A stretch of DNA of 23,215 nucleotides. It comes from a virus. The translations under genes were made by a program, and so were the position numbers. Under the pieces are notes generated by a model, which was given only the letters and a program-made list of their open reading frames with translations, did not search any database and was not told the origin of the DNA. The stretch covers positions 1-23,215 of the IMG/VR virus record IMGVR_UViG_3300021379_002405; one strand, 5' to 3'. Each line of letters starts with the position of its first letter. Position 1 is the stretch's first letter. This document shows, in pieces, positions 1,525 to 21,783 of the stretch.

Positions 1525-1531
1525 TATTTAG
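1525..1531 (-). promoter_or_regulatory. CTAAATA late-promoter-like element before gp25
   Basis: On the minus strand CTAAATA is followed by AAAT and the gp25 ATG. It resembles the T4 late promoter core (TATAAATA) and is identical to the motif at the gp48/gp4 divergent region. A start site at T4 spacing would fall at or within a base of the ATG, giving a leaderless or near-leaderless message. The heptamer also occurs by chance in AT-rich DNA, so this remains a candidate. Confidence 0.35.
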
Positions 1532-4500
1532 TTTACCGGAATTACCCGAGAAATATCTTTTTGTATTTCAATAATCTCTCCAGGATTATTCGGATACTCT
1601 GGATCGACTACTACGTCATACGAAAATTGTTTACTCTCACCAAATCCATTTTTAGCAAAACACATGTAGTATTTTGCCTCAGTAGGTATTGTAACACCAG
1701 ATACGGTCCTCGTAAGTTCTGCTAGATCATCATCAGAAATACTGGCGACTCCGTGGGAAATCCGACCTCCACTCGTATATGCAGTAAAGGCAGATGAATC
1801 CAATGGAGTCTGAAGTGTAGAATCCGTATAAAGTTTCAATGTTACAAAATCACTCTGGATCTCTGCATAATAACTATTACCATCTAATTCGGTCGTACCA
1901 CCTACGCCTATAAATTCTATAAAGTCACCTGACGACATTTGATGATTATTGTCAGCCAATGTAACTTCAGTCTCCGTTCCTATGACTACGTTTGTAATAA
2001 AACCCTGGCCATTTCCACGGCGACCTGTTGTATCTATCCTCGTAAAATCTTCTGTACCAAAATAGATTGTGTAGTTGTCTATCAACTGCTCATCAATAGC
2101 AGGAGTGATGGTAAAGTCTCCTGTAATCTGATCGTTGACTGTATCCACGTCAGTGAATGCTACGTTCGGAGGAAAGAATGCTGGTACGTCTCCAAGATCA
2201 TTAATCGGTATATTTAGGGACGACCTCATCAGGACTTGGGCACCAGGGACGTTTCTCTTATTAAGAGCAGTAAAAATCATAAAGTGAGTCATATCAGGTG
2301 TCAAAGTCGTAGTCGGAATCGGTGCAGTCAATTCTCCATTGATGTCTATAAATCGGAAGTTGACATCTGTTCCGATCTGCGTTCCGATTTGTGCTATGGC
2401 ATTCGTAGTTGGGTTCCTGGATCCGATAAAAACCTTGTAGACTGTATCGATACCATTGATAGAGGTATGGGTTCCAGGATTGATTTTAAGGTCACCAAAA
2501 ATCTGAGCACGATTTGCGTTCGTGTCTGTGAAAGTAGCAGACTGTGCTGTATCGAGTGCCGCAGTAATATTATAAAGATCAAAATAGACTGCAGAGGAGT
2601 ATCCGTTCTGATTCTCAGCGAAGACGATAAGATATCTCCAATCATTAAATGTAGTTGGTTTGAGATCAGTATTTCTTATTGTCCCTGTGATAGTATTCGT
2701 TCCACTGGCGTCAATAGCAGGTTTCTTGATTGACAGATACGGTGCAACATCGAGCTGCATTATATTGGAGTCAGCAAAGAAAATTCTGTAGCCAAGTACA
2801 GTAGATGCTCCGTTGTCGCCAGTCGTATCCAAGTCCTGTATTGTAAAGGACAAGTTCGTAATAAAAAATTCTTTAATGGAAACTGACGATGCTGTCTGAT
2901 CTACTACAACCTCTGGAGCAAGTGGGAGTCCTGTACTAATCGGAATAGCATGGACCTCAACAGATTCTACATCAGTGTATCTTGTCTGATTCCCAAGTCT
3001 GTCCTCGACAGTTGCAACTGAAACAAGGAGAGCATGGGTTGTACCCTCAGGGATCATGCCCTGACCTACACGGACCTCAACCTCCATTGGAATGTCATTG
3101 TCTACTCCGATATTGAAATCTGAGTCAGAAAGGAAATGATAGATCTCCTGGAGTTTCTCAAATGACTCGTTCTCAAATTCATCTAATGATACCTTTGCCC
3201 AATAGAGTTTGTATCCATTGATGTTCATCAGGACTTCGTCTTGGGGTGTCAATCTCTCAACAGAAAATTTCCAAAAGAATTGAACATCCTGAGAGGAGTC
3301 GAATGCTTGAATATTCGTAAATCCGAACATATCAGTTCCAAGTCCTCCACCTGTTCCCATATTTGACTGTAACTGACCAAATTCAAAATCAACCTCGCCC
3401 TGATAGGATCCGTCAAAAAATTTATCCTCTGCTCCTGGAGTCTGATTTAATCCTGAGATCAGATTTTGTTGCATCAGGAGAGAACTGTCATTGCCGACCT
3501 TATTCGTATTATTATTTCTTGCGTTGTCATCACCGAAGGTAGAAGTCATATGACTACCACGTCGAACGACCTCGTTGTACTGTTCTGTAGCATCCTCCAT
3601 AAAATGATTTAATGCCTTGTTGAATTTGTCTTCAAAGTTTCCTTTTGCCGTCTCCCAGTCTTTGAATGCTTGGTTGGTATTCATTGTATTCAAAAACCCT
3701 CTCGTATCTGCTTCAGTACCAAGAAACAGAATCGCCGTAGAGTATTTGAGACTCGATGGAGGGGCACCAGATGCTGATGATAACTTTTTGAGTTCCTCTC
3801 TCAGACCTGCCTTGCCGTTGGCTGTGAAGGATACAAAATAGATTCCACTGTCGCCAAGGACAACCAGTGCCTCAAACCATGCAATAAATCGGAGTATGGC
3901 ATCCTCGAGTTTTTTGAGGAAGTTTATCAACTCTCTCAGCATTTTCTGTATCTCTGCCAGAGCAGACGATCCACCCTTGGCGAACCCTCGGAGCATATTG
4001 GCAAACGACATTACGCCACCTCTCATAGCAAAAGCAAAATCAGGGAACATCTCGCCGACTGTAATCCTGCCGTTGAAGTCAGGGGCAGTAGATGGTGGGA
4101 AGTTGTACTCGTCGATCGTGAAAACCTCGTTGTTGAAATTTCCGAGGACGACTGAGATGTCATCGCCACCTGCTAGATTCTGGTCGATGATAATCGTTCC
4201 GTCTTCAGTCTCAGTTGCAACGTAGACTAATTCTTGATCCTGGAAAATCTTGCCATTGACAGGTTCGTATTTGCCCTGACCTTGAACATTAGTGTATGGA
4301 GCAACCAAAAGTTTTTGTACGGAGAAAACAGATTTCGTATCACCTGATTTGAATGTAATCGTAGGATCATTTCCTGGACGGACATCCTCAGCAGCAATAT
4401 TTGGGACGTTCCATTCACCAGATGCCTGATTGATGACAGACTGTTCTTGAGTTTTTGAGGAGGCAGTAAGCGAAGAATAGGGATTGTATTTATTTCCTTT

Positions 4501-6201
4501 GCTGTCGATAGCAGTAATACTCTCTCGCTCAGTTTTCATATTCTCGAGGACGATGACCGTATTTTTGCTAGACTCTCCGATTAAAATAGAACCCTTTTGT
4601 ATTCTATAGAAATCCTCTTTGACTTTAATCTTTGGAGTGTATTGTGTTTCTGTTCCCTTAGGTTTGTACTGAGTAACCTGACATACATTTCGGAGTTGTA
4701 TCTGTTTTTGAAGAACCTGGTTATTGAAGGCAGTCATTATCTTATTTGATGTCTCAGCCATAACCTTGTTGAAACCTCCACCGAAAACTGATCCGAGAAT
4801 TTCAAATACGTCGATCGGAATAGATTCCAGAGTCGGAAATCCGAGGTAGAATATGATCCCTGAATATTTGTCAAATCCTGAGTCAAGGTTTGCATTGATA
4901 GATTCATTATAACCTACACTCGAAAAGATACCATCTGCCCCTTCCATAAATGGATCTGGGTTTGCATTGGCATTGTATCCGAGCAGTTTCGGTCTGCCGT
5001 AAATATCTTTTTTAGGTTGTCCTAATTTTCCAATGACAGTCGTCGTATTTGACTCTAGATTTGTGATTGCTCCTTTAAGAGTTTTTATCCTTGCCTCGTA
5101 ACTTGATATCAGATTGTCGTCCCTCTGATTCGCAGGCAGAGTCTTCGCTCTTGAGAGAAGTGCCTCAAACTGTGTTAACTGAGACTTTGAGAAAAACCAT
5201 TCATTAATATTTTTAATCCTTGTCTCTTTTCGTTTGAGAGCAGGTTTGTCAGTATGGAGTTCAAAGTGAGGTGCTCCTGGTCGATTAAAATCACCTGGGT
5301 CATCTATTGCCTTTGCCATCGCAGAAAGAACATCACTTGCTGTCATTTTCACCAGTCCTGCGGCACCTGCTTTTTCACCAAGGTAAGCCATGCCAGCATC
5401 TGAGACGAATCTCAAAACTCTTGCAGTCTGACCTAAGACATTTTGATGCAAGGATGATCCATCGATGGCTACCCCACCTGCAACTGCCTGACTACCCACT
5501 GCCTCTGGTATATCCGTACTAGTCCCTTGTCTTTCCCGAATCAGTACAGTTGCTGCTTTTCCATACTTGGTAGCAAAATGTAAAGTCAAAAACGTATTGT
5601 CTGCAATCTGCCCGTAGGTAAATCTCATCATAAGATCAGACTCCTCAGCAGGTTTCATTGGTTGCTTACGTTTTTGTTTTACAGCATTTACCTTGTCCCT
5701 CGCGATCGCCTCATAGGGTCGTAGTTGTTGCTCAGCGATGTACTTCGCTTTTTCGATGCCCTCTGCGTCACGGACTTTCTGAACATTTTTGACACTTCCC
5801 TCTAAGCCAAGTACCATCTGTAGGACCTGAAAAGAAACTGTATCATCGAAGTCAGGATCAAGCAGGTCATTGATAAGTTGACCTGGATATGCAAATGCTT
5901 TACCGTCACCGACCTTGACTGTACGTTTTAACTCAACGTTAGTCGGGTCGATGATCATGTAGTATAGTCCTGTATTAAAAAGGGAGTTGACGTAGTCTTC
6001 AAGTGCCTGTGCCAGCACCTGAATGGCGATGAATAGAGGATTCATCAAACCTGTCAACAGCAAGTTCAGGAAAGCAATATTTCCCTGTGCCAACTGGGCT
6101 AAGGTCTTGACTACCTTTACTACATCGTCTACGTTTTTAAGGAAACCCTTTATTGCTTTCGTGTTACCGTCAGCGAGAGTTAATCCCTTCCACTGCGCCA
6201 T
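1528..6201 (-). CDS. Large tail/baseplate structural protein with C-terminal fibronectin-III-like repeats
   Basis: 1557 residues, no T4 homologue that I recognise. The position between the spike/hub genes and gp25-gp6 makes it a virion protein of the baseplate or its fibres. Residues about 40-65 form a hydrophobic helix, and a second hydrophobic helical stretch lies near 760-810. The last third looks like four FN3-type beta-sandwiches. Matching core strands occur at G996 (GYKLYWA), G1137 (GYRIFFA), V1254 (VYKVFIG) and Y1377 (YTIYFG), each followed by a late strand such as WRYLIVFAENQNGYSS or KYYMCFAKNGFGES. The fourth module is longer, with an insertion. Such modules on phage tails usually bind surface sugars. 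The start is supported by CAGGGAG upstream, and the first 32 bases overlap the small gene before it. It may be a functional stand-in for T4 gp7/gp10-type peripheral wedge proteins, which is inference. Confidence 0.8.
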   Translation of the reverse strand: MAQWKGLTLADGNTKAIKGFLKNVDDVVKVVKTLAQLAQGNIAFLNLLLTGLMNPLFIAIQVLAQALEDYVNSLFNTGLYYMIIDPTNVELKRTVKVGDGKAFAYPGQLINDLLDPDFDDTVSFQVLQMVLGLEGSVKNVQKVRDAEGIEKAKYIAEQQLRPYEAIARDKVNAVKQKRKQPMKPAEESDLMMRFTYGQIADNTFLTLHFATKYGKAATVLIRERQGTSTDIPEAVGSQAVAGGVAIDGSSLHQNVLGQTARVLRFVSDAGMAYLGEKAGAAGLVKMTASDVLSAMAKAIDDPGDFNRPGAPHFELHTDKPALKRKETRIKNINEWFFSKSQLTQFEALLSRAKTLPANQRDDNLISSYEARIKTLKGAITNLESNTTTVIGKLGQPKKDIYGRPKLLGYNANANPDPFMEGADGIFSSVGYNESINANLDSGFDKYSGIIFYLGFPTLESIPIDVFEILGSVFGGGFNKVMAETSNKIMTAFNNQVLQKQIQLRNVCQVTQYKPKGTETQYTPKIKVKEDFYRIQKGSILIGESSKNTVIVLENMKTERESITAIDSKGNKYNPYSSLTASSKTQEQSVINQASGEWNVPNIAAEDVRPGNDPTITFKSGDTKSVFSVQKLLVAPYTNVQGQGKYEPVNGKIFQDQELVYVATETEDGTIIIDQNLAGGDDISVVLGNFNNEVFTIDEYNFPPSTAPDFNGRITVGEMFPDFAFAMRGGVMSFANMLRGFAKGGSSALAEIQKMLRELINFLKKLEDAILRFIAWFEALVVLGDSGIYFVSFTANGKAGLREELKKLSSASGAPPSSLKYSTAILFLGTEADTRGFLNTMNTNQAFKDWETAKGNFEDKFNKALNHFMEDATEQYNEVVRRGSHMTSTFGDDNARNNNTNKVGNDSSLLMQQNLISGLNQTPGAEDKFFDGSYQGEVDFEFGQLQSNMGTGGGLGTDMFGFTNIQAFDSSQDVQFFWKFSVERLTPQDEVLMNINGYKLYWAKVSLDEFENESFEKLQEIYHFLSDSDFNIGVDNDIPMEVEVRVGQGMIPEGTTHALLVSVATVEDRLGNQTRYTDVESVEVHAIPISTGLPLAPEVVVDQTASSVSIKEFFITNLSFTIQDLDTTGDNGASTVLGYRIFFADSNIMQLDVAPYLSIKKPAIDASGTNTITGTIRNTDLKPTTFNDWRYLIVFAENQNGYSSAVYFDLYNITAALDTAQSATFTDTNANRAQIFGDLKINPGTHTSINGIDTVYKVFIGSRNPTTNAIAQIGTQIGTDVNFRFIDINGELTAPIPTTTLTPDMTHFMIFTALNKRNVPGAQVLMRSSLNIPINDLGDVPAFFPPNVAFTDVDTVNDQITGDFTITPAIDEQLIDNYTIYFGTEDFTRIDTTGRRGNGQGFITNVVIGTETEVTLADNNHQMSSGDFIEFIGVGGTTELDGNSYYAEIQSDFVTLKLYTDSTLQTPLDSSAFTAYTSGGRISHGVASISDDDLAELTRTVSGVTIPTEAKYYMCFAKNGFGESKQFSYDVVVDPEYPNNPGEIIEIQKDISRVIPVN

Positions 6202-6445
6202 TTATTACTCCCTGTAGAGAATCTTGTATTTCTTCGTAATTATCAATAACTGATTTTACATTTTTGTGGAATGCTTTCATCTCGTCCACATGTACCTGAT
6301 GCCGTTCTGCCCAATCTGGTTTTGACCACTCACCATCTTTGGGTGGTGGTTTATATTTTGATGAACTAGTTTTCGGCGTATGTTTTATATCGTCTACGAT
6401 TCGACTCTGCATCTTCATAGATGGAGTTGATATTTCGAAGTGCAC
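6170..6445 (-). CDS. Small protein of unknown function overlapping both neighbours
   Basis: 91 residues if started at the GTG at 6445, which has AAGGGG about five bases upstream. ATG codons at 6418 and 6412 in the same frame would give 82 or 80 residues. It is hydrophilic, with a Lys/Pro-rich N-terminal half (YKPPPKDGEWSKPDWAERH) and a helical C-terminal half (MKAFHKNVKSVIDNYEEIQ), and has no membrane segment or signal. It overlaps the end of the 1132-residue gene (80 bases with the GTG start) and the start of the 1557-residue gene (32 bases), so it is probably translated by coupling. I do not recognise the family. It may be a small linker or assembly factor for the two large proteins that flank it. 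Confidence 0.6.
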   Translation of the reverse strand: MHFEISTPSMKMQSRIVDDIKHTPKTSSSKYKPPPKDGEWSKPDWAERHQVHVDEMKAFHKNVKSVIDNYEEIQDSLQGVINGAVEGINSR

Positions 6446-9400
6446 TTTGTCCCCTTATAACTGTTCCTGTATCATCATTCATGAGAATATCTGCTGACTC
6501 ATAAACCTCTTTTGAATACCCTTCTGCTGTGACACCCTGATTTCCATTCCAATCATAGCTAGCAGAATTTGATATTGGAAATCCTATCCTAAACCTAAGA
6601 CTGTTAATGTAATCATTTCTGATGCCTTCCAAATAGTACATTGGCTCAAAAAATTCTTTGAATGTATAGGTGTAGGTCCATTGTATTGATCCTCCACCAG
6701 TTCCATAATTAAAGTAGTCACCCATCGCTCCACTATACTGATTGTTGTAGGATTCAATCTCAGTCAGATTCCACCTCTCAAAAGTCCATCTGAGATAGTG
6801 ATTAAATGCCTCATCCTTATGCATCTGTCCTACGGTCGCTCCGTTGCCTGGCCAGTCTGCGTAGTCATAAATAGTTTCTCCTGGCATAGTACGATAACTT
6901 CCTGAGTCATAGTCCTCGTAGAAAGGATCAATGACTGATCCTGCTTTGAAAGGTTCATCATTAAGAGCATTGTCTCTTGTAGGATCGTTAGAGAGCCATC
7001 GATTTCTCAAAGTCCGAACTGCCTTCCAATCATTGCTATCCAAAAATCGGGCAACGATGTTTATATCACATATAACTTCTTCAGAAGAGTAGGTAAGAGT
7101 ATGAAGAGTATGTAGGTATACAGTTGTCTGCTGTCCTGTATTTGGATCTGTATTGACACCAGTAACATCAACTCCTCCGTCGTAAACTGCATTTACCTTA
7201 AAAAGTTTTCCGTTAATCATCGTATAGTAGGTCCCTGCTTGATATTCAGGAGGACTAAAAGGATGCCCAACTCCTGCTCTCATCGATGATGTAGTAGTCA
7301 AAAGTGTTACTGAGAACTGAGAGGTCAGATTTCCATTAACATCATAGTTCTCATACGAATTGAGTTTCGGAAATGGACTGTAAGTCGAACTTCCAGTATG
7401 AGACCAGGCAGGCATTGTCATCGTCTTTGCATTTTTATTAGACCAAATATCTCTTGCGTCGCCTGCATGAATTACATTCGCACTCATGTTCAATTCTGCA
7501 GGATGTCGATCTCCATCTTTGTGCCAGCTAAAAGGATTTTCTGCCTGTTGGGGATGGCTACCATCGTATCTTGCTTCCTTGAGTCTGCTAATTCCGTTTC
7601 CGAGTGCGTCAGTTGCTCTCCAGGTTTTTACAGTAGAGATAGTATTATCCTCAGTTGAGTTTAGATACCCAGGGAGGTCTCTATTCGACGTAACAAAATT
7701 TTCTGCGTTTGCTCTGTCGTAGTCTGTTAGTCTTGGATTCGGTTGACACCTCCACCGAAGTTCAGAGAAGACACCAAATCCTGCTCCACCCTGAGGAGAC
7801 CCTGTTGAATCTTTGTTAAGAGTCCCATCCCAATAGACGAAGCAACCTGCGTATGGAGCAGACTTATCAGGGGCATCATCTGTCCTTGGGAAAAATGGGT
7901 TGTTCTCAATGTAGGCATAATGCTCATTTGATCTCTCGCCTGCAGAACGAGTCTGGCTAAACTGTTGATTGTTTGAACCTGTATTTGCCTGGCTAGATGA
8001 AAACTCCTGGCGTCGAGCAGATCGAGTAATCTGATTATCTGAGTTTGAGAACCATCCAAGGTAAGGTTCCCAAGTCGCCTGGTCCATCTTAGTCATTTCT
8101 TGAACTGGGATCGTGGTATTATAATCTGTATTCGCCGAGTTGTCATGGCGATTATTTGCTCTAAACCAGTCGTAGTTGACCTGCATACCTCTACCTGAAA
8201 CGATAGCCAGGAGAGCATTTGTATGAGGTGGTTCCTTGTAGACAGTCGTAGGAGTAACATTTGCCGCAGTAGTATTCGCAGGTTCTACTCGTAGTTCCTC
8301 TGGTACAGTTGACCGAGCATCATTCGCTGAGTTCGCTACTTCCTCGTCCTGGGCCAAAACTTCATCATGACCGATATGTCTTCTGAGTACCAAAGTTTTT
8401 CCAAGAGGTGGAGGGAGTGTATTATATGCAGTATCAGTCGGTGGATCTGCATACCCTGTCTGGATATTTCCTACACCCTGACTCATGCCATGAGAGAGAA
8501 TAAGTTTGGCAGGATAAAGTCCACCTGAGTCTGGAAACAGATACTGCTGTACATTCATTGTTCCGTACTGCTGACTCCAGGCATCCTGCTCGAAACCATT
8601 AATGAAGTCATCTGAGTCAGAGTTTGCGGCACCCTCTGGGATGTTGACGTTGCTTTCTGAAAGAGTCCATCTGAACTTTTTCGTGGCACCTCCGATGTAG
8701 CCAAAAGCACCTGTTCCCCCATCCTGCTGTACAAAATCACCTGGTTGGAAAATATTGCCAGCATCAAACTCTGCCTCATTCGATATACTGTCGCACTCCA
8801 ACATGGAAACGGCAGTATCTGTATTCTGCGATAAAATCCTACGAATGGCAACTGTATTGCCCTTGCTTGTCAGGAGAATATTTGAAGTCGTTGATGCATT
8901 AAAACCTTGGACTCCGATAACTCCTGCAACCTCTTTTTCTGTTGTTCCGTATTCAGTATTGACTGTGATCGTTTTTGGAGATGTAATACTTGGACCAACT
9001 GAGTTAATCTCCATCTCAAAAAATGCCTCAGGGCGATAGATATCCATTACCAGGATACCTCCGTTTAATCTGTAGTCTCGTCTTAGGTCTGTTGCCTCTT
9101 GAGGTTCCTTTGGTTTCTCAGTCTGAGTCACATCTCCGTTAACTGTATTCTTTGGTATGAAAGGGAGAGGTGTAGTATAGACTGTTAGATCATCATCGAT
9201 GTTATAGAGTTCGCCTGTCTCGTAGTTCTGAGCGAGGTAGTAGTCTCCAATGTAGTTTGAGAATGTATTGGTTCCGATCGTGAATGTAGATCCAGGATCG
9301 TTACTCATCTCAACCTCAGTATCTCCGTCGAGGTTCGTAATCAGAACACTGATTTCAAAATCATTTGACAGGTAGAGATCAGGTTCATTCTCAACCATTT

Positions 9401-9764
9401 CTGATCTTGCACCCATCTCAAAAAACATAGTTTGATCAGCAGAGTAGCCATGTAGCATCGTAAATTTCTTGCCGAGGTTTCTAAGGACCTTCTCCTTGGT
9501 TATAAAACCTATACCTCCAAAGGCAGGAACATTATTCTCTACGGTCTCCCAGGTAGATTGATTCCACTGCACCTCAATATCCTGATAAACTTTATTATGA
9601 GATATCGGAGCGAGTACAGCATTTTCTGTATCTGGTTCTCTGAACAGTTCGTCGACTGCCATCACTTGCGCAAGAACTCGTTGCCTAGAGTCCACCATCA
9701 TAACTGGTGCATCTAGGAGAGATTGATCTGCTTTTCTTGCTTCATCTTGTTTGTACGTACCCAT
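6366..9764 (-). CDS. Large virion protein of unknown fold (1132 residues)
   Basis: An unbroken 1132-codon gene in the baseplate operon, with its start one base after the stop of the 158-residue gene. It is soluble, acidic and rich in Asn, Tyr, Thr and Trp, with many short beta-type segments and no membrane helices, as expected of an extracellular phage appendage or baseplate shell. The N-terminus (about residues 1-110) is conserved-looking and helical, with VDSRQRVLAQVMAVDELF. The C-terminal 60 residues are charged and helical (SALRNINSIYEDAESNRRR). I see no catalytic motif and no resemblance to T4 gp7, gp8, gp9, gp10 or gp11. Its place next to the spike suggests a lineage-specific baseplate or short-fibre component. 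Confidence 0.75.
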   Translation of the reverse strand: MGTYKQDEARKADQSLLDAPVMMVDSRQRVLAQVMAVDELFREPDTENAVLAPISHNKVYQDIEVQWNQSTWETVENNVPAFGGIGFITKEKVLRNLGKKFTMLHGYSADQTMFFEMGARSEMVENEPDLYLSNDFEISVLITNLDGDTEVEMSNDPGSTFTIGTNTFSNYIGDYYLAQNYETGELYNIDDDLTVYTTPLPFIPKNTVNGDVTQTEKPKEPQEATDLRRDYRLNGGILVMDIYRPEAFFEMEINSVGPSITSPKTITVNTEYGTTEKEVAGVIGVQGFNASTTSNILLTSKGNTVAIRRILSQNTDTAVSMLECDSISNEAEFDAGNIFQPGDFVQQDGGTGAFGYIGGATKKFRWTLSESNVNIPEGAANSDSDDFINGFEQDAWSQQYGTMNVQQYLFPDSGGLYPAKLILSHGMSQGVGNIQTGYADPPTDTAYNTLPPPLGKTLVLRRHIGHDEVLAQDEEVANSANDARSTVPEELRVEPANTTAANVTPTTVYKEPPHTNALLAIVSGRGMQVNYDWFRANNRHDNSANTDYNTTIPVQEMTKMDQATWEPYLGWFSNSDNQITRSARRQEFSSSQANTGSNNQQFSQTRSAGERSNEHYAYIENNPFFPRTDDAPDKSAPYAGCFVYWDGTLNKDSTGSPQGGAGFGVFSELRWRCQPNPRLTDYDRANAENFVTSNRDLPGYLNSTEDNTISTVKTWRATDALGNGISRLKEARYDGSHPQQAENPFSWHKDGDRHPAELNMSANVIHAGDARDIWSNKNAKTMTMPAWSHTGSSTYSPFPKLNSYENYDVNGNLTSQFSVTLLTTTSSMRAGVGHPFSPPEYQAGTYYTMINGKLFKVNAVYDGGVDVTGVNTDPNTGQQTTVYLHTLHTLTYSSEEVICDINIVARFLDSNDWKAVRTLRNRWLSNDPTRDNALNDEPFKAGSVIDPFYEDYDSGSYRTMPGETIYDYADWPGNGATVGQMHKDEAFNHYLRWTFERWNLTEIESYNNQYSGAMGDYFNYGTGGGSIQWTYTYTFKEFFEPMYYLEGIRNDYINSLRFRIGFPISNSASYDWNGNQGVTAEGYSKEVYESADILMNDDTGTVIRGQSALRNINSIYEDAESNRRRYKTYAEN

Positions 9765-15648: not shown

Positions 15649-16322
15649 TGGCTACACGCAGACAAGACCTAACAGAATCTCTACTCGATAGATTTAAGGA
15701 TGCCCTTAGAACAGGGTCTGCTAAAAACCTAAGGAAGGATGCTAGGAATTGGTTTAGGACCAAGATCCAGCAGGGTAAGAAATTAGCCAAGCAGACCTAC
15801 AATCGTGCCAAGGCAGGTGCCAAGGCAGGAATGACAGGGATGAAACCGAATGATATTCTCCGTGATGGAGGGTATCAACGTGCTCGGTTTACTGGGAGGA
15901 GAATCGTTTATGGGAAAATGTTCTTCTTTGAATACGACGCCAAATACAAGGCGACTTTGCCATACTGGGACAGGTATCCGTTAACGATTTTCTTCGATTA
16001 CTCCCCACCTCATTTGTTGGGGTTGAACCTACATTATTTGCCACCCTATCATAGGGCGACGTTACTTGATAATCTGAAGAGATTTCAACAGGGTAAAGAA
16101 CTTAACAGCGATACGTTTCTGAGACTTGACTGGAAGAAGATCTCTAATATCAAAGAGGTCAAACCTGCTGTCAAGAAATACCTGATAAATCGGGTAGGAC
16201 TTGCAGTTCAGATTCCAGCAGATGAATGGGACGTAGCGATCTTTCTGCCTGTAGCGAGGTTCGTAGGAGCATCTGAAGGGCAGGTTTTCAAGGACTCTAA
16301 GAAAGCAATGGCGAGGACGTAA
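15648..16322 (+). CDS. Basic protein of the gp4/tail cluster, function unknown
   Basis: 224 residues. The first 75 or so are strongly basic and helical (KNLRKDARNWFRTKIQQGKK, KQTYNRAKAGAKAG), suggesting contact with nucleic acid or an acidic partner. The rest is an aromatic-rich globular domain with KMFFFEYDAKYKATLPYWD, FFDYSPPHLLGLNLHYLPP and a C-terminal IFLPVARFVGASEGQVF. No catalytic motif or membrane segment is seen. It is coupled to gp4 and to the gp54-like gene by TAATG overlaps. In T4 the neighbour of gene 4 is gene 2 (DNA-end protector), and the basic N-terminus would suit that role, but I cannot show homology. A tail-completion or baseplate role is equally possible. Confidence 0.7.
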   Translation: MATRRQDLTESLLDRFKDALRTGSAKNLRKDARNWFRTKIQQGKKLAKQTYNRAKAGAKAGMTGMKPNDILRDGGYQRARFTGRRIVYGKMFFFEYDAKYKATLPYWDRYPLTIFFDYSPPHLLGLNLHYLPPYHRATLLDNLKRFQQGKELNSDTFLRLDWKKISNIKEVKPAVKKYLINRVGLAVQIPADEWDVAIFLPVARFVGASEGQVFKDSKKAMART

Positions 16323-17101
16323 TGCCAGCAACAGCAAAAAAGGGAGCATCGGCAAGATTTAACATCGATGACTTTGTAGAATATTTTAACAAAGGATTTG
16401 GTTATACTAATCTGTTTGTTTGCTATATCAATTTTGATAAGGTTACAAATGGCAAACATAGTCTCAAAACTCTAACAGATAAAACCTCTCCAGGTATCGC
16501 TCTGGCATGTCAGTCAGTAGCATTGCCTGGAAAAGCACTGATCACGAAGGAACGATTTACGCAGTCTGTCCCAAAACAGTTCGGGTATAACATTCAGTAT
16601 GCTGACATTACCTGCAACTTTCTCGTTGATGCAAACATCTCAGGAAAAAATACGTGGAACTTTTTCAATACCTGGTCAGACATAATTGTCAATCCTCGTA
16701 CAGGATTTGTTGCATACCATGATGACTACTCCTGCGATATGTATTTAAGTATGATGGATCACGACAATAGTATTCACAATCCTGCCCTCGGATCCAAGAC
16801 AGAAGGTGGGAATAAGATTATAGGAATACATTGCGAGAAGGTTTTTCCAAAGGCACTCGGTGAGGTCTCAATGGATGCAGGGTCAACAGACGTAGCAAAA
16901 TTCTCTGTAACCTTTGCCTCTCATAGATTCTATAGTGTATCAGATAATTGGTCTAACATGGGTGCGACAAGGAGCACAGATTTCGACGCATTTGATTTTA
17001 CTACACTACCCAAAAACGAATTTGCAAAACTACAAGAACAACAGGATGAAATAGCATTCAATACTATAGGTACAACAAGTACGTATGATAATGTAAGTTA
17101 A
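16322..17101 (+). CDS. 54: Tail-tube-fold protein, gp54-like tube initiator
   Basis: 259 residues. The second half has the tail-tube (gp19) fold pattern: FFNTWSDIIVNPRTGFVAYH, a strand with CDMYLSMMD, then GIHCEKVFPKALGEVSMDAG and DVAKFSVTFASHRFYS, which match the gp19-type order of helix, strand, 'V.P..I...SMD.GS.D.A.F.VTF'. gp48 is already assigned on the other strand, and this gene lies by the hub chaperone and tape-measure genes, so gp54, which sits on gp48 and starts tube polymerisation, is the best match. T4 gp54 is longer (320 residues). A minor tube paralogue or the tube protein itself cannot be excluded. The C-terminal 35 residues are a charged helical tail. The start is coupled by TAATG. 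Confidence 0.62.
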   Translation: MPATAKKGASARFNIDDFVEYFNKGFGYTNLFVCYINFDKVTNGKHSLKTLTDKTSPGIALACQSVALPGKALITKERFTQSVPKQFGYNIQYADITCNFLVDANISGKNTWNFFNTWSDIIVNPRTGFVAYHDDYSCDMYLSMMDHDNSIHNPALGSKTEGGNKIIGIHCEKVFPKALGEVSMDAGSTDVAKFSVTFASHRFYSVSDNWSNMGATRSTDFDAFDFTTLPKNEFAKLQEQQDEIAFNTIGTTSTYDNVS

Positions 17102-17115
17102 TTTGAAAGGACATT

Positions 17116-17826
17116 ATGGCATTACCTGTCTTGAACGCCAAGACATTTGAGGTTAAACAACCATCAACAGGTGACAAATTAAGACTGAGACCATTTTTGG
17201 TCGCAGAAGAAAAGATACTATTGCAGGTTTCAGATGGGACTCCTGCAGAGATGTCAGAGGCAACAAAGCAGATTCTGAAGCAATGCGTTCAGGATAACCC
17301 TGACTTTGACCCTGATAAAATACCATCATTTGACATAGAATATCTGTTCCTTAGATTGAGAGCAGAGTCTGTCGGAGCAAAGGTTACTCTTAATCTACCT
17401 CATAAAGATGAGTGTGAGAGGACAGAGTTCCAAATAGATTTGACTCATGTCAAAGTGGAGTTTGATGAAAACCACTCCAGCAAAATAATGCTCGACAAGA
17501 ATGTCGGTGTTATGATGAGGTATCCATCAGTAGATGTTTTATCAGAAATCGCAGAAATGGAAGAAGAGACTGAGCAATCATTCTCTCTTATGGGCAAATG
17601 TATCGAGCATGTATTCACAGCAGACGGAGAGATGCACGCATTTGACCAGGCGACTGATAAAGAAAAACAAGAATTTTTAGATTCAATGTCGACAGAGCAA
17701 TTTGCGAAGGTGCAGGACTTCTTTGTTACGATGCCGACTTTGAAATACATAGCCAAGGTAAAGAAGTGCGTTACCTGTGGTCAGCCATTCGAATATGAGA
17801 TTACGGGACTGGCCAATTTTTTCTGA
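17116..17826 (+). CDS. 26: Baseplate hub / tail assembly chaperone gp26-like (zero-frame product)
   Basis: 236 residues, with AAAGGA four bases before the ATG. It resembles the T4 gp26-like family of tail assembly proteins. The N-terminal beta domain (FEVKQPSTGDKLRLRPFLVA) leads into a helix, a second beta region and the C-terminal helices (FLDSMSTEQFAKVQDFFVTM). It ends in a short zinc-ribbon-like piece, C218-VTC-G221/222, and the terminal GLANFF. Position just before the tape-measure gene and the overlapping -1 reading frame downstream match the lambda G/GT type of chaperone, which coats and stabilises the tape measure during assembly. The stop codon directly follows a run of six T that forms a canonical slippery site, so a minority product should continue into the -1 frame (304 residues in total). 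Confidence 0.82.
   Translation: MALPVLNAKTFEVKQPSTGDKLRLRPFLVAEEKILLQVSDGTPAEMSEATKQILKQCVQDNPDFDPDKIPSFDIEYLFLRLRAESVGAKVTLNLPHKDECERTEFQIDLTHVKVEFDENHSSKIMLDKNVGVMMRYPSVDVLSEIAEMEEETEQSFSLMGKCIEHVFTADGEMHAFDQATDKEKQEFLDSMSTEQFAKVQDFFVTMPTLKYIAKVKKCVTCGQPFEYEITGLANFF
17817..17823 (+). other. Programmed -1 ribosomal frameshift site (T_TTT_TTC)
   Basis: The zero-frame codons are AAT TTT TTC TGA, so the heptamer T TTT TTC fits X_XXY_YYZ with Phe tRNAs able to re-pair fully after slipping back one base. The stop TGA follows at once, which favours slippage by stalling. A 5-bp hairpin (TGATA, loop TGCG, TATCA, 17824-17837) begins at the stop codon. That is closer than usual stimulators, so its role is uncertain. 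After the shift the next codon is CTG at 17823 and the frame stays open for 68 codons. Confidence 0.82.
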
Positions 17827-18029
17827 TATGCGTATCACATGACAATCTTGCAAATCATTTCAAGACGAACTTTGCCCTGCACAAATACCATGGGTACGCA
17901 TTAACTGAAATTAACAACATGATGCCTTGGGAACGAAAAGTATATATCTCTCAGATCCTACAAAATATGGAAAGAGAGAAGGCAGAACAAAACCAAGACG
18001 ATAACCTATTAGCACCAGTTTGGGAGTAA
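17823..18029 (+). CDS. 51: -1 frame extension of the gp26-like chaperone, gp51-like (T domain of a G/GT pair)
   Basis: 68 codons in the -1 frame, entered from the gp26-like gene by frameshift. The full product is bases 17116-17823 joined to 17823-18029, 304 residues. It has no usable start of its own: the first ATG in frame is at codon 33, and no ribosome site precedes the frame. The peptide is coherent and helical: NLANHFKTNFALHKYHGYAL, then TEINNMMPWERKVYISQIL and a charged tail. 'MPWER+.Y...L' followed by an acidic/basic helix is the typical end of frameshifted tail chaperones and of T4-type gp51. It terminates one base before the ATG of the tape measure and provides GGGAG as its ribosome site. 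T4 encodes gp26 and gp51 as separate proteins; here they appear to be joined. Confidence 0.78.
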   Translation: MICVSHDNLANHFKTNFALHKYHGYALTEINNMMPWERKVYISQILQNMEREKAEQNQDDNLLAPVWE

Positions 18030-18030
18030 G

Positions 18031-20415
18031 ATGGCTGAGGAAGCACCAAAACCACCTCATAAAGAATTTCAAGATTTCATGTCTTCGGTCAGGAAATCTC
18101 TTATAGAGCAAGGTAAAACTGCAGTAGAGAATAAAGAGGCAGACCAACATTTCTATAAGAGACAGATTAGAGATATTGCTGTTCGAGCTAAATCTGCCAA
18201 TGCTGTTCTTGGAAAGTTATCTAAGCATGAAGATTACCTGAAATCAACCTCAGAAAAGACACAAGAGAATATTACAACTGGTTTGTTGGCTATTGAGAAC
18301 ATGAAAATGTTCGGTAGAGATATCAAAAATGTAGTCAAGAATACTTCAGATGCATTGTCTCAGGATGGGTTTTTGAAATCTGTCATCAAACAAAATGGTG
18401 CAGTGATGTCTAAGAAATTAGACAATCTCAAAGATACCATGAAGGCAAATCGAGAGAGGATGGTGCATGCTATACAAACCTCTCCTGAGAGAATGATCGG
18501 TGGCATTGTCAATGGAGTATCTGCTGGAGTCAATAAACTCAGAGAGGGTTTGGTTGATAAGCATGACAAACTCCTTGCCTACTTTGGCAACAAAGATGCT
18601 AGAGACCGAATGGAAAAGAAAATGGAAGGTCGTAAGGCAGGTGGAGGTGATTCTGGATTTAAGGCAGATGTAAAAGAGAATGCTAAAAAGGCAGGTGGCT
18701 GGCTCAAGAAAATGCTTGGAATTCTTACTACATTTGGTACGGGTGCGTTCAAAGGTATCTTTACCAAACTGTTCCCTGCTATCGGCAAATTCCTGTTAAA
18801 GAATATCGGCAAACTCGGACTCGTAGGACTTGCAGTTGGTCTGCTTACAACCTTCTGGGATGATATCTCAAACTTCGTTAGTGGTCTTTTTAGTGGCGAT
18901 AGTGCTGAGGGAGGCAAAGCAACGAAGGATGGTGTCAAAGGCATGCTCGATAAGATGTGGGGATTTGTCAATGATATGATCAAAGATCTTTTTGGCGTAG
19001 ACCTCGGAAAAGTCCTTGCAGATAAGGGCATCGATATCGGTAGCATCACAACGACTATCTCAGAATATATTACACCTGTCATAAATGGATTTGCAACAGT
19101 AGCAAAAACTCTTGGAAATACCTTTAAGAATCTAGTCAAGTCTGCCTTCGGAGAAGAGGGCAAACCAGGAAAAATGACGGAGGTCTTTGACAACATAAAG
19201 GCGATCGCATCAGGACTTATTGATGGAGCAAAAAATCTACTTGGTGGGTTGTTCAACATGGACGGCAAAGATATGACCTTCGGAGAGGTTGTTAAAGCAA
19301 TGATGGGCAAGTTTGAGAATTTTGTCAATATGATAATGGACGGAGCGAGACGACTTACTGAATATGTTCTGGATCCAAGTGCTCTGGTAGCAGATGTAAA
19401 GAATGCTTTCGGTGGATTAGGTCGTATGATTTCAAATGTCTTTGACGACATCATGATATCCATTAAAGCACTGGCCCAGTCTACATTGAATCCTCTAGAA
19501 AGTTATGATGAAGCACTCGGTAGATTAAAGAAAGAGAACGCAGAGCAGAAGATCAAAGAAGCAAAGATGGCTGAGGCAAGTCTTGAGTCAGGTCTTAAAG
19601 CAATGGGTCTTAGTCCTGACGTGCTGGCAAAAATCCAAACAGGGATGGATGTCGGTACGTTTATGCGAGAGCAGTTCGGTGATAAGGATCTGAATGAAAC
19701 TCAAAAAGGAGTTATCGAGAATCAGATCAGGACTATTGTTGATGCTAGAGAGCGAGCACAGGAACAGCAGTTTGAAGCATTGGAGTCAGCAGCAGAGGGA
19801 ACAGTCCAGAAGATGCTTGAAGAACATAAGAAACAGAACCTCGGTAAAATGCTTTCTGGTGATTCTACTTTTAAAAAGCAAATACAAGAACTTGCTGGGA
19901 TGCAGAGTGGCGTTGGAGTAGGATTAAATGACAAGACACTTGAACAGTCTACTCGAGATTTTATCTCTAAAATGGATAAGGATACAGCACAGAAATTTTT
20001 GGGTCAACTTGAGACTTTGGATAAGGCAGGAGACTTCGGAGCGAAAGAAGCAGAAGCATTAGCAAAGCAACTCGGACTTGGCAACATAGGAGGAGAAAAA
20101 GGTAATGCTCTAGAGTTCTTTGAGATGTTGATGGATGCAGAGAATATTAAGAAGGCAGGAACGAAGATGACCTTCGGTGAAATCCACGGAGACAAGATCG
20201 GAGAAGATGTTGCAGATGCCTTACTCGCTACAGGATTCAAACAGAATAACGAAGCAATTACTGCGGCAGTGAAACAAATCGCAGGAATGAATGCTAACCT
20301 CGCCTCACTACCAGCAATCCTATCACAACTACCTGGTGCAGTCGCTGAAGGTTCTGCTTCTGGTGCTCGTCAAAAAGGTGCTAGACAGGAGAGTGATATG
20401 AAGTCGAATCAATGA
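18031..20415 (+). CDS. Tail tape-measure protein
   Basis: 794 residues, mostly alpha-helical with few aromatics. It lies directly after a G/GT-like chaperone pair, the standard position of the tape measure, and would occupy the role of T4 gp29 (590 residues), which sets tail length and is ejected ahead of DNA. Residues about 223-276 are a strongly hydrophobic stretch with LLKNIGKLGLVGLAVGLL, the kind of membrane-inserting segment common in tape measures. Amphipathic helices follow to about residue 480, then a charged coiled-coil-like part (LGRLKKENAEQKIKEAKMAE) and a Glu/Lys/Gln-rich C-terminal third. No lytic transglycosylase or peptidase motif was found. The start has GGGAG from the preceding stop region. 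It is the last gene of the plus operon and is followed by two hairpins. Confidence 0.85.
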   Translation: MAEEAPKPPHKEFQDFMSSVRKSLIEQGKTAVENKEADQHFYKRQIRDIAVRAKSANAVLGKLSKHEDYLKSTSEKTQENITTGLLAIENMKMFGRDIKNVVKNTSDALSQDGFLKSVIKQNGAVMSKKLDNLKDTMKANRERMVHAIQTSPERMIGGIVNGVSAGVNKLREGLVDKHDKLLAYFGNKDARDRMEKKMEGRKAGGGDSGFKADVKENAKKAGGWLKKMLGILTTFGTGAFKGIFTKLFPAIGKFLLKNIGKLGLVGLAVGLLTTFWDDISNFVSGLFSGDSAEGGKATKDGVKGMLDKMWGFVNDMIKDLFGVDLGKVLADKGIDIGSITTTISEYITPVINGFATVAKTLGNTFKNLVKSAFGEEGKPGKMTEVFDNIKAIASGLIDGAKNLLGGLFNMDGKDMTFGEVVKAMMGKFENFVNMIMDGARRLTEYVLDPSALVADVKNAFGGLGRMISNVFDDIMISIKALAQSTLNPLESYDEALGRLKKENAEQKIKEAKMAEASLESGLKAMGLSPDVLAKIQTGMDVGTFMREQFGDKDLNETQKGVIENQIRTIVDARERAQEQQFEALESAAEGTVQKMLEEHKKQNLGKMLSGDSTFKKQIQELAGMQSGVGVGLNDKTLEQSTRDFISKMDKDTAQKFLGQLETLDKAGDFGAKEAEALAKQLGLGNIGGEKGNALEFFEMLMDAENIKKAGTKMTFGEIHGDKIGEDVADALLATGFKQNNEAITAAVKQIAGMNANLASLPAILSQLPGAVAEGSASGARQKGARQESDMKSNQ

Positions 20416-20553: not shown

Positions 20554-21492
20554 TTAGGCAGTCTCAGCCAGTTTCTTAAAATAGTCAAGGTCAGCATCGT
20601 CGGTAGATGCTTCAGAGACGTTGGGGTTCTCTGCGACAGGTAAATCCTGTGCTGGTTCAGCAGTCTCTCTATCAGGGGCAGGTACACTCTGTGGAGAGTA
20701 TCCCATATCGCTAACGTCTTCTTCCATTGCACTAGCAGTTCCCCTTCCAGCATCCTCGATGCCGAGGACACGATGGAGTTTCGCCTCTAACTCAGAATAT
20801 GATTTAAAGGTGGACGGGTCAATAAACTCCTTCAGACTGTGTTCTGATTTCCAAATCTCTTCAAGTCTTTCATCTCCACCTTCAATCTCAGATGGCATGT
20901 CAAACTCAGATTTGTCATAGTTTCGATACCCTTCAACCTGGCGAATCTTCAGACGAAAGTTCGCACCTTTCCACAAGTCGAAAGGATTAACGGGTTGCTC
21001 ATCCTGGAATTCAGGATTGATAAGGTCCTGGATTTTCTGGAAAATCTTCTTTCCATACTTATACAGGAAAACTTTACCCTCGTTCTCAGGTCTCTTAGGA
21101 TCACTGATGACAAGGATGTTAGAGTAATAGGACAGACGACGTTTACGAGACCGAACGATGTCTTTGTCTGATTCGTCTCCGGAGTTCCAAAGTCGCGAGT
21201 TCATCTCGCTGACTGGATCTTTCTGACCGATAGTAGTCAGTGACTTTTCAATGTACCAACCACCTGTTCCCTGGAATCCATGATCCCATACTTGGACGTA
21301 TGGAAGGTCTTCCTCTGGAGGAGCAGGGAGAAATCGGATAACAGAGTATCCATTACCGGAACTGTCAACATCAGGTTTCCAGAAGTGATCGTCTTGCTGA
21401 CGTCCCTGACCACCTTGTGCAGTTTCGTTTACTTTTGATTTGAGTGCGTCGAAGTCCGACTGTGAGGATCTTTTGAGGGATGAGAAATCCAT
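20554..21492 (-). CDS. 32: Single-stranded DNA-binding protein gp32
   Basis: 312 residues (T4: 301). It coats ssDNA in replication, recombination and repair. The N-terminal basic cooperativity motif is present as LKRSS (residues 6-10). The OB-fold core is clear: SGNGYSVIRFLPAP, WDHGFQGTGGWYIEKS, YYSNILVISDPKRPENEGKV, YKYGKKIFQKI, WKGANFRLKIRQVEGYRNYD. The C-terminus is acidic and ends with DDADLDYFKKL, the partner-binding tail. Of the T4 zinc ligands only the histidine is kept (H71, for T4 H64). The three cysteines are replaced at S84, V94 and M97, and the protein has no cysteine at all. The ribosome site is AAAGGA. gp33 lies 33 bases upstream and probably shares the transcript. Confidence 0.95.
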   Translation of the reverse strand: MDFSSLKRSSQSDFDALKSKVNETAQGGQGRQQDDHFWKPDVDSSGNGYSVIRFLPAPPEEDLPYVQVWDHGFQGTGGWYIEKSLTTIGQKDPVSEMNSRLWNSGDESDKDIVRSRKRRLSYYSNILVISDPKRPENEGKVFLYKYGKKIFQKIQDLINPEFQDEQPVNPFDLWKGANFRLKIRQVEGYRNYDKSEFDMPSEIEGGDERLEEIWKSEHSLKEFIDPSTFKSYSELEAKLHRVLGIEDAGRGTASAMEEDVSDMGYSPQSVPAPDRETAEPAQDLPVAENPNVSEASTDDADLDYFKKLAETA

Positions 21493-21525: not shown

Positions 21526-21783
21526 TTATAACGGTAATGTTGTGGCATTTTTCTTTGAAATCAGATTCAAAGATTTAGCCTCGGTCGCTAACCTCTGCTT
21601 GAGGGGACCGACTACATAGTGAGCAACCTGCTCTTCCTCAAGAGCATGGATGTCACAGTAATAGAGTATCGCTTCCAAGTAACCCATTGAGTACTTGTCT
21701 ACAATATTCTCTATCTCTTTAACAAATGTATCTGCTTTATTTAGGTCCAGATTAACCATAGGGATAGTGTATTGCCTTTTCAT
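21526..21783 (-). CDS. 33: Late-promoter transcription accessory protein gp33
   Basis: 85 residues (T4: 112). gp33 bridges host RNA polymerase and the sliding clamp to activate late promoters with gp55. The central part aligns with T4 by eye: VKEIENIVDKYSMGYLEAIL against the T4 segment containing MSYLEA, followed by EEEQVAHYV and IEKIQSEA-like GPLKQRLATEAKSLN. The T4 protein ends in LDFLL, used to bind the clamp; this one ends in TTLPL, without the acidic and Phe residues. The start could be the ATG at 21783 (taken here), which would be almost at the transcription start of the upstream promoter, or Met9 at 21759, after which the conserved core begins. Confidence 0.87.
   Translation of the reverse strand: MKRQYTIPMVNLDLNKADTFVKEIENIVDKYSMGYLEAILYYCDIHALEEEQVAHYVVGPLKQRLATEAKSLNLISKKNATTLPL

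Follow-up and report, generated by a model that had tools for sequence, protein, structure and literature searches.

How does a phage translate a conserved reading frame that opens in the −1 frame at the very end of a tail gene, with no start codon near its beginning? The question arises in the window, i.e., the whole 23,215-nt stretch of IMG/VR virus record IMGVR_UViG_3300021379_002405. Here, a gp26-like gene (G; plus strand, ATG at 17116, 236 amino acids [aa], 0 frame) extends to position 17826 and is followed in the −1 frame by a 68-codon extension (T). The initial annotation had proposed that a frameshift in the manner of lambda G/GT joins gp26-like and gp51-like parts. This proposal proved strongly supported: the slip site is conserved, the −1 frame is under purifying selection, structured RNA follows downstream, the genes stand in canonical order, and the predicted fold is that of a chaperone. 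Judged by its sequence, the locus very probably represents a lambda G/GT-type pair of tail-assembly chaperones (TACs) made by −1 frameshifting. We infer the slippage itself, its frequency and the binding partners of the two products.

Slip site and −1 frame at the end of G

The 3′ end of G reads GCC AAT TTT TTC TGA, with the stop codon (17824-17826) immediately behind the heptamer T_TTT_TTC. In the −1 frame, no stop occurs between 17799 and the TAA at 18027-18029, and the codons from 17823 on spell LICVSHDNLANHFKTNFALHKYHGYALTEINNMMPWERKVYISQILQNMEREKAEQNQDDNLLAPVWE; the ATG of the following gene, at 18031, lies one base past this TAA. The initial annotation had thus read the gene end and its heptamer (17817-17826), the 68 codons free of stops and the one-base distance to the next gene correctly. 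It had also stated that the −1 frame has no start of its own, which does not hold: two consecutive ATG codons are present at 17919-17924. No start codon was found in the −1 frame upstream of 17919, a position 32 codons past the beginning of the conserved peptide. The site is unlikely to reflect chance: heptamers of the form XXXYYYZ were found in frame at 25 of the 7350 codons in genes of the window.

Searched as DNA, the whole region returned a single weak phage match; relatives were therefore sought among proteins and in contig collections. They were gathered independently of the slip site, by two patterns located N-terminally in the 0-frame protein, which yielded 82 loci, 76 of them less than 90% alike and taken as the nonredundant set. 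All 76 carried T_TTT_TTN at the end of the 0-frame gene (TTC in 47, TTT in 27 and TTA in 2), including two that encode FL in place of FF. In 75 of the 76, the 0-frame stop followed 0 to 3 codons past FF; all 76 kept the same −1 peptide. In the column of F235, the codon was TTT in 100% and the preceding base T in 100%, compared to 31 to 89% and 1 to 34%, respectively, in control columns of conserved Phe elsewhere in G. No P value is quoted for this conservation, as the sequences share ancestry. Distant phages of other families likewise retained TTTTTTC.

A relaxed P-site codon (ATT, CTT or CAT before TTC) was observed in Ackermannviridae and some relatives, giving N_NTT_TTC-like heptamers such as A_ATT_TTC, A_CTT_TTC and C_CAT_TTC (among L092, 3790-3815; L094, 3725-3750; L091, 3650-3670; L100, 3290-3315; L120; L127; and L141). 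Several of these loci also carried an ATG overlapping the 0-frame stop. Most retained T_TTY, and the −1 frame was conserved; here, T may be made by single-tRNA slippage or by coupled reinitiation, both of which are possible.

The −1 frame was also under purifying selection. Over T codons 1 to 32, the ratio of nonsynonymous to synonymous substitution rates (dN/dS), pooled over 25 disjoint pairs, was 0.10 in the −1 frame versus 1.45 and 2.83 in the two others, and comparison of the window with its relative L003 (the prefix L denotes loci of relatives) gave 0.06 over the whole of T. Mean pairwise differences at the three codon positions of the first 30 columns were 0.37, 0.26 and 0.57, i.e., the third position was strongly variable. 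Conservation of both the T run and the −1 frame at a dN/dS below 1, for which the initial annotation had suggested looking in an alignment, was found, the T run in all 76 loci and the low dN/dS in the pooled pairs.

RNA structure was in excess directly downstream. In ∼70 nt starting 5 nt past the heptamer, the folding energy had a mean z score of −2.26 ± 0.20 against synonymous recoding, and 68% of the loci fell below −1.5; at seven control places in G and three farther into T, values ranged from −0.13 to −0.74. In the window, the minimum free energy (MFE) fold contains a stem separated from the heptamer by a 4-nt spacer, whose 5′ arm pairs via 17828-17836 and 17838-17841. No single stem was common to all loci: individual folds used different partners and clades different stems, and base pairs were therefore counted within clades. 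Compensatory changes were found in the stem of a first clade (C-G to G-C) and of a second (A-U to G-C and C-G to U-A); the 14-bp stem of a third had weak support against shuffles. Upstream, the anti-Shine-Dalgarno energy of the 76 loci reached its minimum ∼15 nt before the heptamer (mean z score, −0.92), mildly beyond what coding requires, which is only suggestive of a Shine-Dalgarno-like stimulator. It seems an even question whether frameshifting in the marine group is driven, in some cases together with the upstream Shine-Dalgarno-like element, by a stem-loop ∼5 nt past a constant slip site that was replaced many times by unrelated stems, each with its own pairing partners, loop length and topology. 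If so, stem turnover around a fixed slip site would offer a natural series on how stimulators turn over under protein-coding constraint. The group-wide structure provides a set of natural candidate stimulators.

By the proposed mechanism, the majority of ribosomes would terminate at the TGA at 17824 and so make G, the short form of 236 aa. On T_TTT_TTC, a minority would slip back one base, both Phe tRNAs pairing anew with TTT TTT; the adjacent stop codon and the stem-loop 4 to 5 nt downstream would probably assist. These ribosomes would append the 68 residues of the −1 frame and thereby make GT, the long form of 304 aa. If lambda is a guide, the tape-measure protein encoded immediately downstream may be coated by many copies of G and few of GT, and the T part may recruit tail-tube subunits.

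Predicted chaperone fold and gene neighborhood

The locus was read as a G/GT chaperone pair because G has a predicted chaperone fold and lies between a gp54-like gene and a tape-measure-like gene. The AlphaFold model of G had a predicted local distance difference test score (pLDDT) of 92.9. Foldseek alone yielded no significant PDB match for it, and a profile search of G versus PDB sequences found nothing real; with a second structural aligner, the first three PDB ranks for the N-terminal domain were 3FGX (Z score, 8.6), HK97 gp13 (2OB9; Z score, 7.3) and 5IR0 (Z score, 5.0), all of them identified as TACs (PMC9603447, PMC12987554). The model thus supports a chaperone fold at moderate strength. 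The upstream gene belongs to the same family as T4 gp54. In Pelagibacter phage HTVC008M, the counterpart of the 794-aa downstream protein is annotated as tape measure and matches tape-measure PHROGs, so that by position and by this counterpart the downstream protein is probably the tape measure. In some relatives (L001, 3403-3735; L006, 2719-3048; L103, 3380-3745; and L104, 3346-3765), an extra gene of ∼110 to 140 codons was present between T and the tape-measure-like gene; the window contains no such gene.

Several observations weigh against assigning the locus to a G/GT pair. The Z scores of 7.3 to 8.6 are middling by the aligner's own guidance, and the comparison of a gp51 model to the PDB with the second aligner returned no TACs. 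The 794-aa neighbor itself matched no family, tape-measure families included. Moreover, the window phage has a weak Shine-Dalgarno-like signal, partly dictated by the amino acids encoded there.

Even with a genuine frameshift, the short and long proteins could, in keeping with the T4 names, be structural parts of the hub or catalyze folding rather than act as tape-measure chaperones. We consider this improbable in view of the TAC fold of G, the order tube-G-T-tape and the G/GT arrangement itself, and of the published identification of T4-like TAC genes, as cited in PMC10885494.

Other possible ways to produce T

Less likely still, T could be a small gene in its own right (gp51) that has a start codon of its own and is translated by reinitiation after the G stop. 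Many cyanophage relatives are annotated in this way, some annotators starting "gp51" at the codon equivalent to the ATG pair at 17919-17924, and in some distant relatives (Dickeya, Cygsa01, K361, L115, L139 and L144) an ATG overlaps the stop as TAATG or TGATG. However, the first −1-frame start of the window is codon 33, whereas selection and homology set in at codons 1 to 2. The ATG pair, for which no clear Shine-Dalgarno sequence was seen, is probably not where T truly starts, because the first start is not conserved in position among relatives; that it falls at many different places speaks against a separate T gene. In addition, the overlapping ATG is absent from Kutterviruses, and reinitiation does not need T_TTT_TTN. 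Transcriptional slippage usually needs runs longer than 6 T. As a source of the frame change it is therefore scarcely credible, since, despite the homopolymer, the run comprises just 6 T in 49 of 76 loci, and codon-phased conservation with structured RNA 5 nt downstream fits ribosomal slippage better.

The features of the locus are compiled in Table 1. Elsewhere in the window, a T4-type late-promoter regulator (21526-21783, minus strand) and the single-strand DNA-binding protein gp32 (20554-21492, minus strand) adjoin the tail cluster, which confirms that the window is a fragment of a T4-like marine phage. Two very long proteins of 1557 and 1132 aa (1531-6201 and 6369-9764, both minus strand) are encoded between baseplate genes and had no PHROG match. 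The window contains no tRNA genes.

Table 1 Positions of features at the G-T locus and its neighbors in the window
Feature	Position	Strand	Basis
Upstream neighbor, gp54-like tail-tube initiator	16322-17101	+	phrog_45, E 6e-30; T4 gp54 in same family
G, gp26-like short TAC (very probable)	17116-17826	+	phrog_150, E 1.9e-57; PF12322, E 8.6e-52; N-terminal domain of model matches TAC structures
Shine-Dalgarno-like stimulator position (suggestive), weak in window phage (TACGGGAC)	17802-17809	+	Group-wide anti-Shine-Dalgarno minimum
Slippery heptamer T_TTT_TTC	17817-17823	+	T_TTT_TTN in 76/76 nonredundant relatives; matched Phe-codon control
T, −1-frame extension, 68 codons + TAA, read ...N F F / L I C V S...	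17823-18029	+	phrog_634, phrog_150, dN/dS
0-frame stop TGA, immediately 3′ of heptamer	17824-17826	+	Sequence
Downstream stem, 5′ arm, 13 bp with 17889-17901, A17837 bulged	17828-17841	+	MFE fold, −18.6 kcal/mol
Downstream stem, 3′ arm	17889-17901	+	MFE fold; also present in L003, where A-U replaces one G-U pair
Two in-frame ATG codons within T (MMPWERK), codons 33-34	17919-17924	+	Sole −1-frame ATGs ahead of conserved motif
Downstream neighbor, 794-aa protein, probable tape measure	18031-20415	+	37% identical to L003 orthologue

T4 gp26/gp51 and other known systems

Both parts of the locus fall into the sequence family of T4 gp26/gp51, with significant matches of G to PF12322 and phrog_150 and of T to phrog_634 ("gp51"; E 2.3e-21). 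T also matched the C-terminal end of phrog_150 (positions 228-278), and no family for it was found in Pfam or NCBIfam. T4 gp26 matched phrog_150 at positions 14-235 only, while T4 gp51 matched positions 13-280 of 282 in one frame, plus phrog_634. A profile of the frameshift-joined marine proteins aligned T4 gp51 across the junction (residues 116-245; whole-protein E 1.5e-10) and T4 gp26 up to the junction. Since gp51 matches the G and T domains and gp26 stops short, this sequence comparison indicates that T4 holds the short form (gp26) and the long form (gp51) as two paralogous genes. The initial annotation was thus right that T4 makes gp26 and gp51 separately, and the profile comparison it suggested did match T to the family named gp51. 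Its equation of T with gp51 needs amending, as gp51 is the whole form of short part plus extension (G+T) and not the small peptide alone. Separate short and long paralogues were not found in the window: the 23-kb record, a fragment, contains one copy of G, and T lies in the −1 frame.

In an unrooted tree with long branches, frameshift users were split from gp26 and gp51 with a support of 98/94 (gp51, 100/100; gp26, 83/46). Aeromonas phages AsFcp_2 and 65.2, which belong to the same family as T4, retain the frameshift. The simplest, though tentative, reading is that duplication replaced the frameshift within T4's family. In Klebsiella phage CP-p-KP-21068 (L099, 2501-3792), gp51-like and gp26-like genes are arranged head to tail on one strand, compared to the divergent pair of T4, possibly an arrangement nearer to the original duplication. 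In two deposited T4-type sequences, gp51 seems broken by a small indel, either a sequencing error or a real frame change: L113 (3001-3746) has stops in the matched frame, and in Acinetobacter phage ZZ1 (L101, 2501-3249) the match is in two pieces.

Vladimirov et al. reportedly identified the TAC genes of T4-like phages in 2022. In the passages citing that work, PRFect refers to it for phages that carry one short and one fused long copy of the gene (PMC10885494), and another paper attributes to it the poly-T signals for −1 frameshifting in the TAC-N genes of T4-like phages (PMC12846349). A 2016 review had described G-T frameshifting as widely conserved, with T4 as the exception (PMC5009743). 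Because of these credits for T4-like TAC genes and poly-T slip sites, the frameshift principle is regarded as already known for phages, T4-like ones included, and the window phage adds one case. Our comparison reveals T4 relatives with the usual G-T design, in agreement with Vladimirov et al. as cited there. For hundreds of marine T4-like phages, it also rectifies how a tail gene is annotated, "gp51" having been given arbitrary starts or omitted. One trait thus occurs in two designs, as a single frameshifted gene in most of the wider family and as two paralogues in T4 and its close kin.

Compared to lambda G/GT, the window locus would share a short 0-frame protein with a rarer −1-frame extension made at a slippery heptamer that lies close to the 3′ end, and the placement between tail-tube-type and tape-measure genes. 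It differs in its slip sequence and in its larger G (236 aa); no significant sequence match to a named TAC family was found. With T4 gp26/gp51 it has in common the sequence family of G, T4 gp51 matching the whole of G+T, but T4 uses two paralogous genes and the window phage one gene plus a frameshift. The TAC loci of Vandenendeviridae and Andersonviridae (PMC12846349) likewise depend on a −1 frameshift and were earlier annotated as a hypothetical gene; they belong to other phage families and use the slip motif GTTTTT. The T4-like TACs of Vladimirov et al., judged from the papers that cite them, represent the same gene family as described here.
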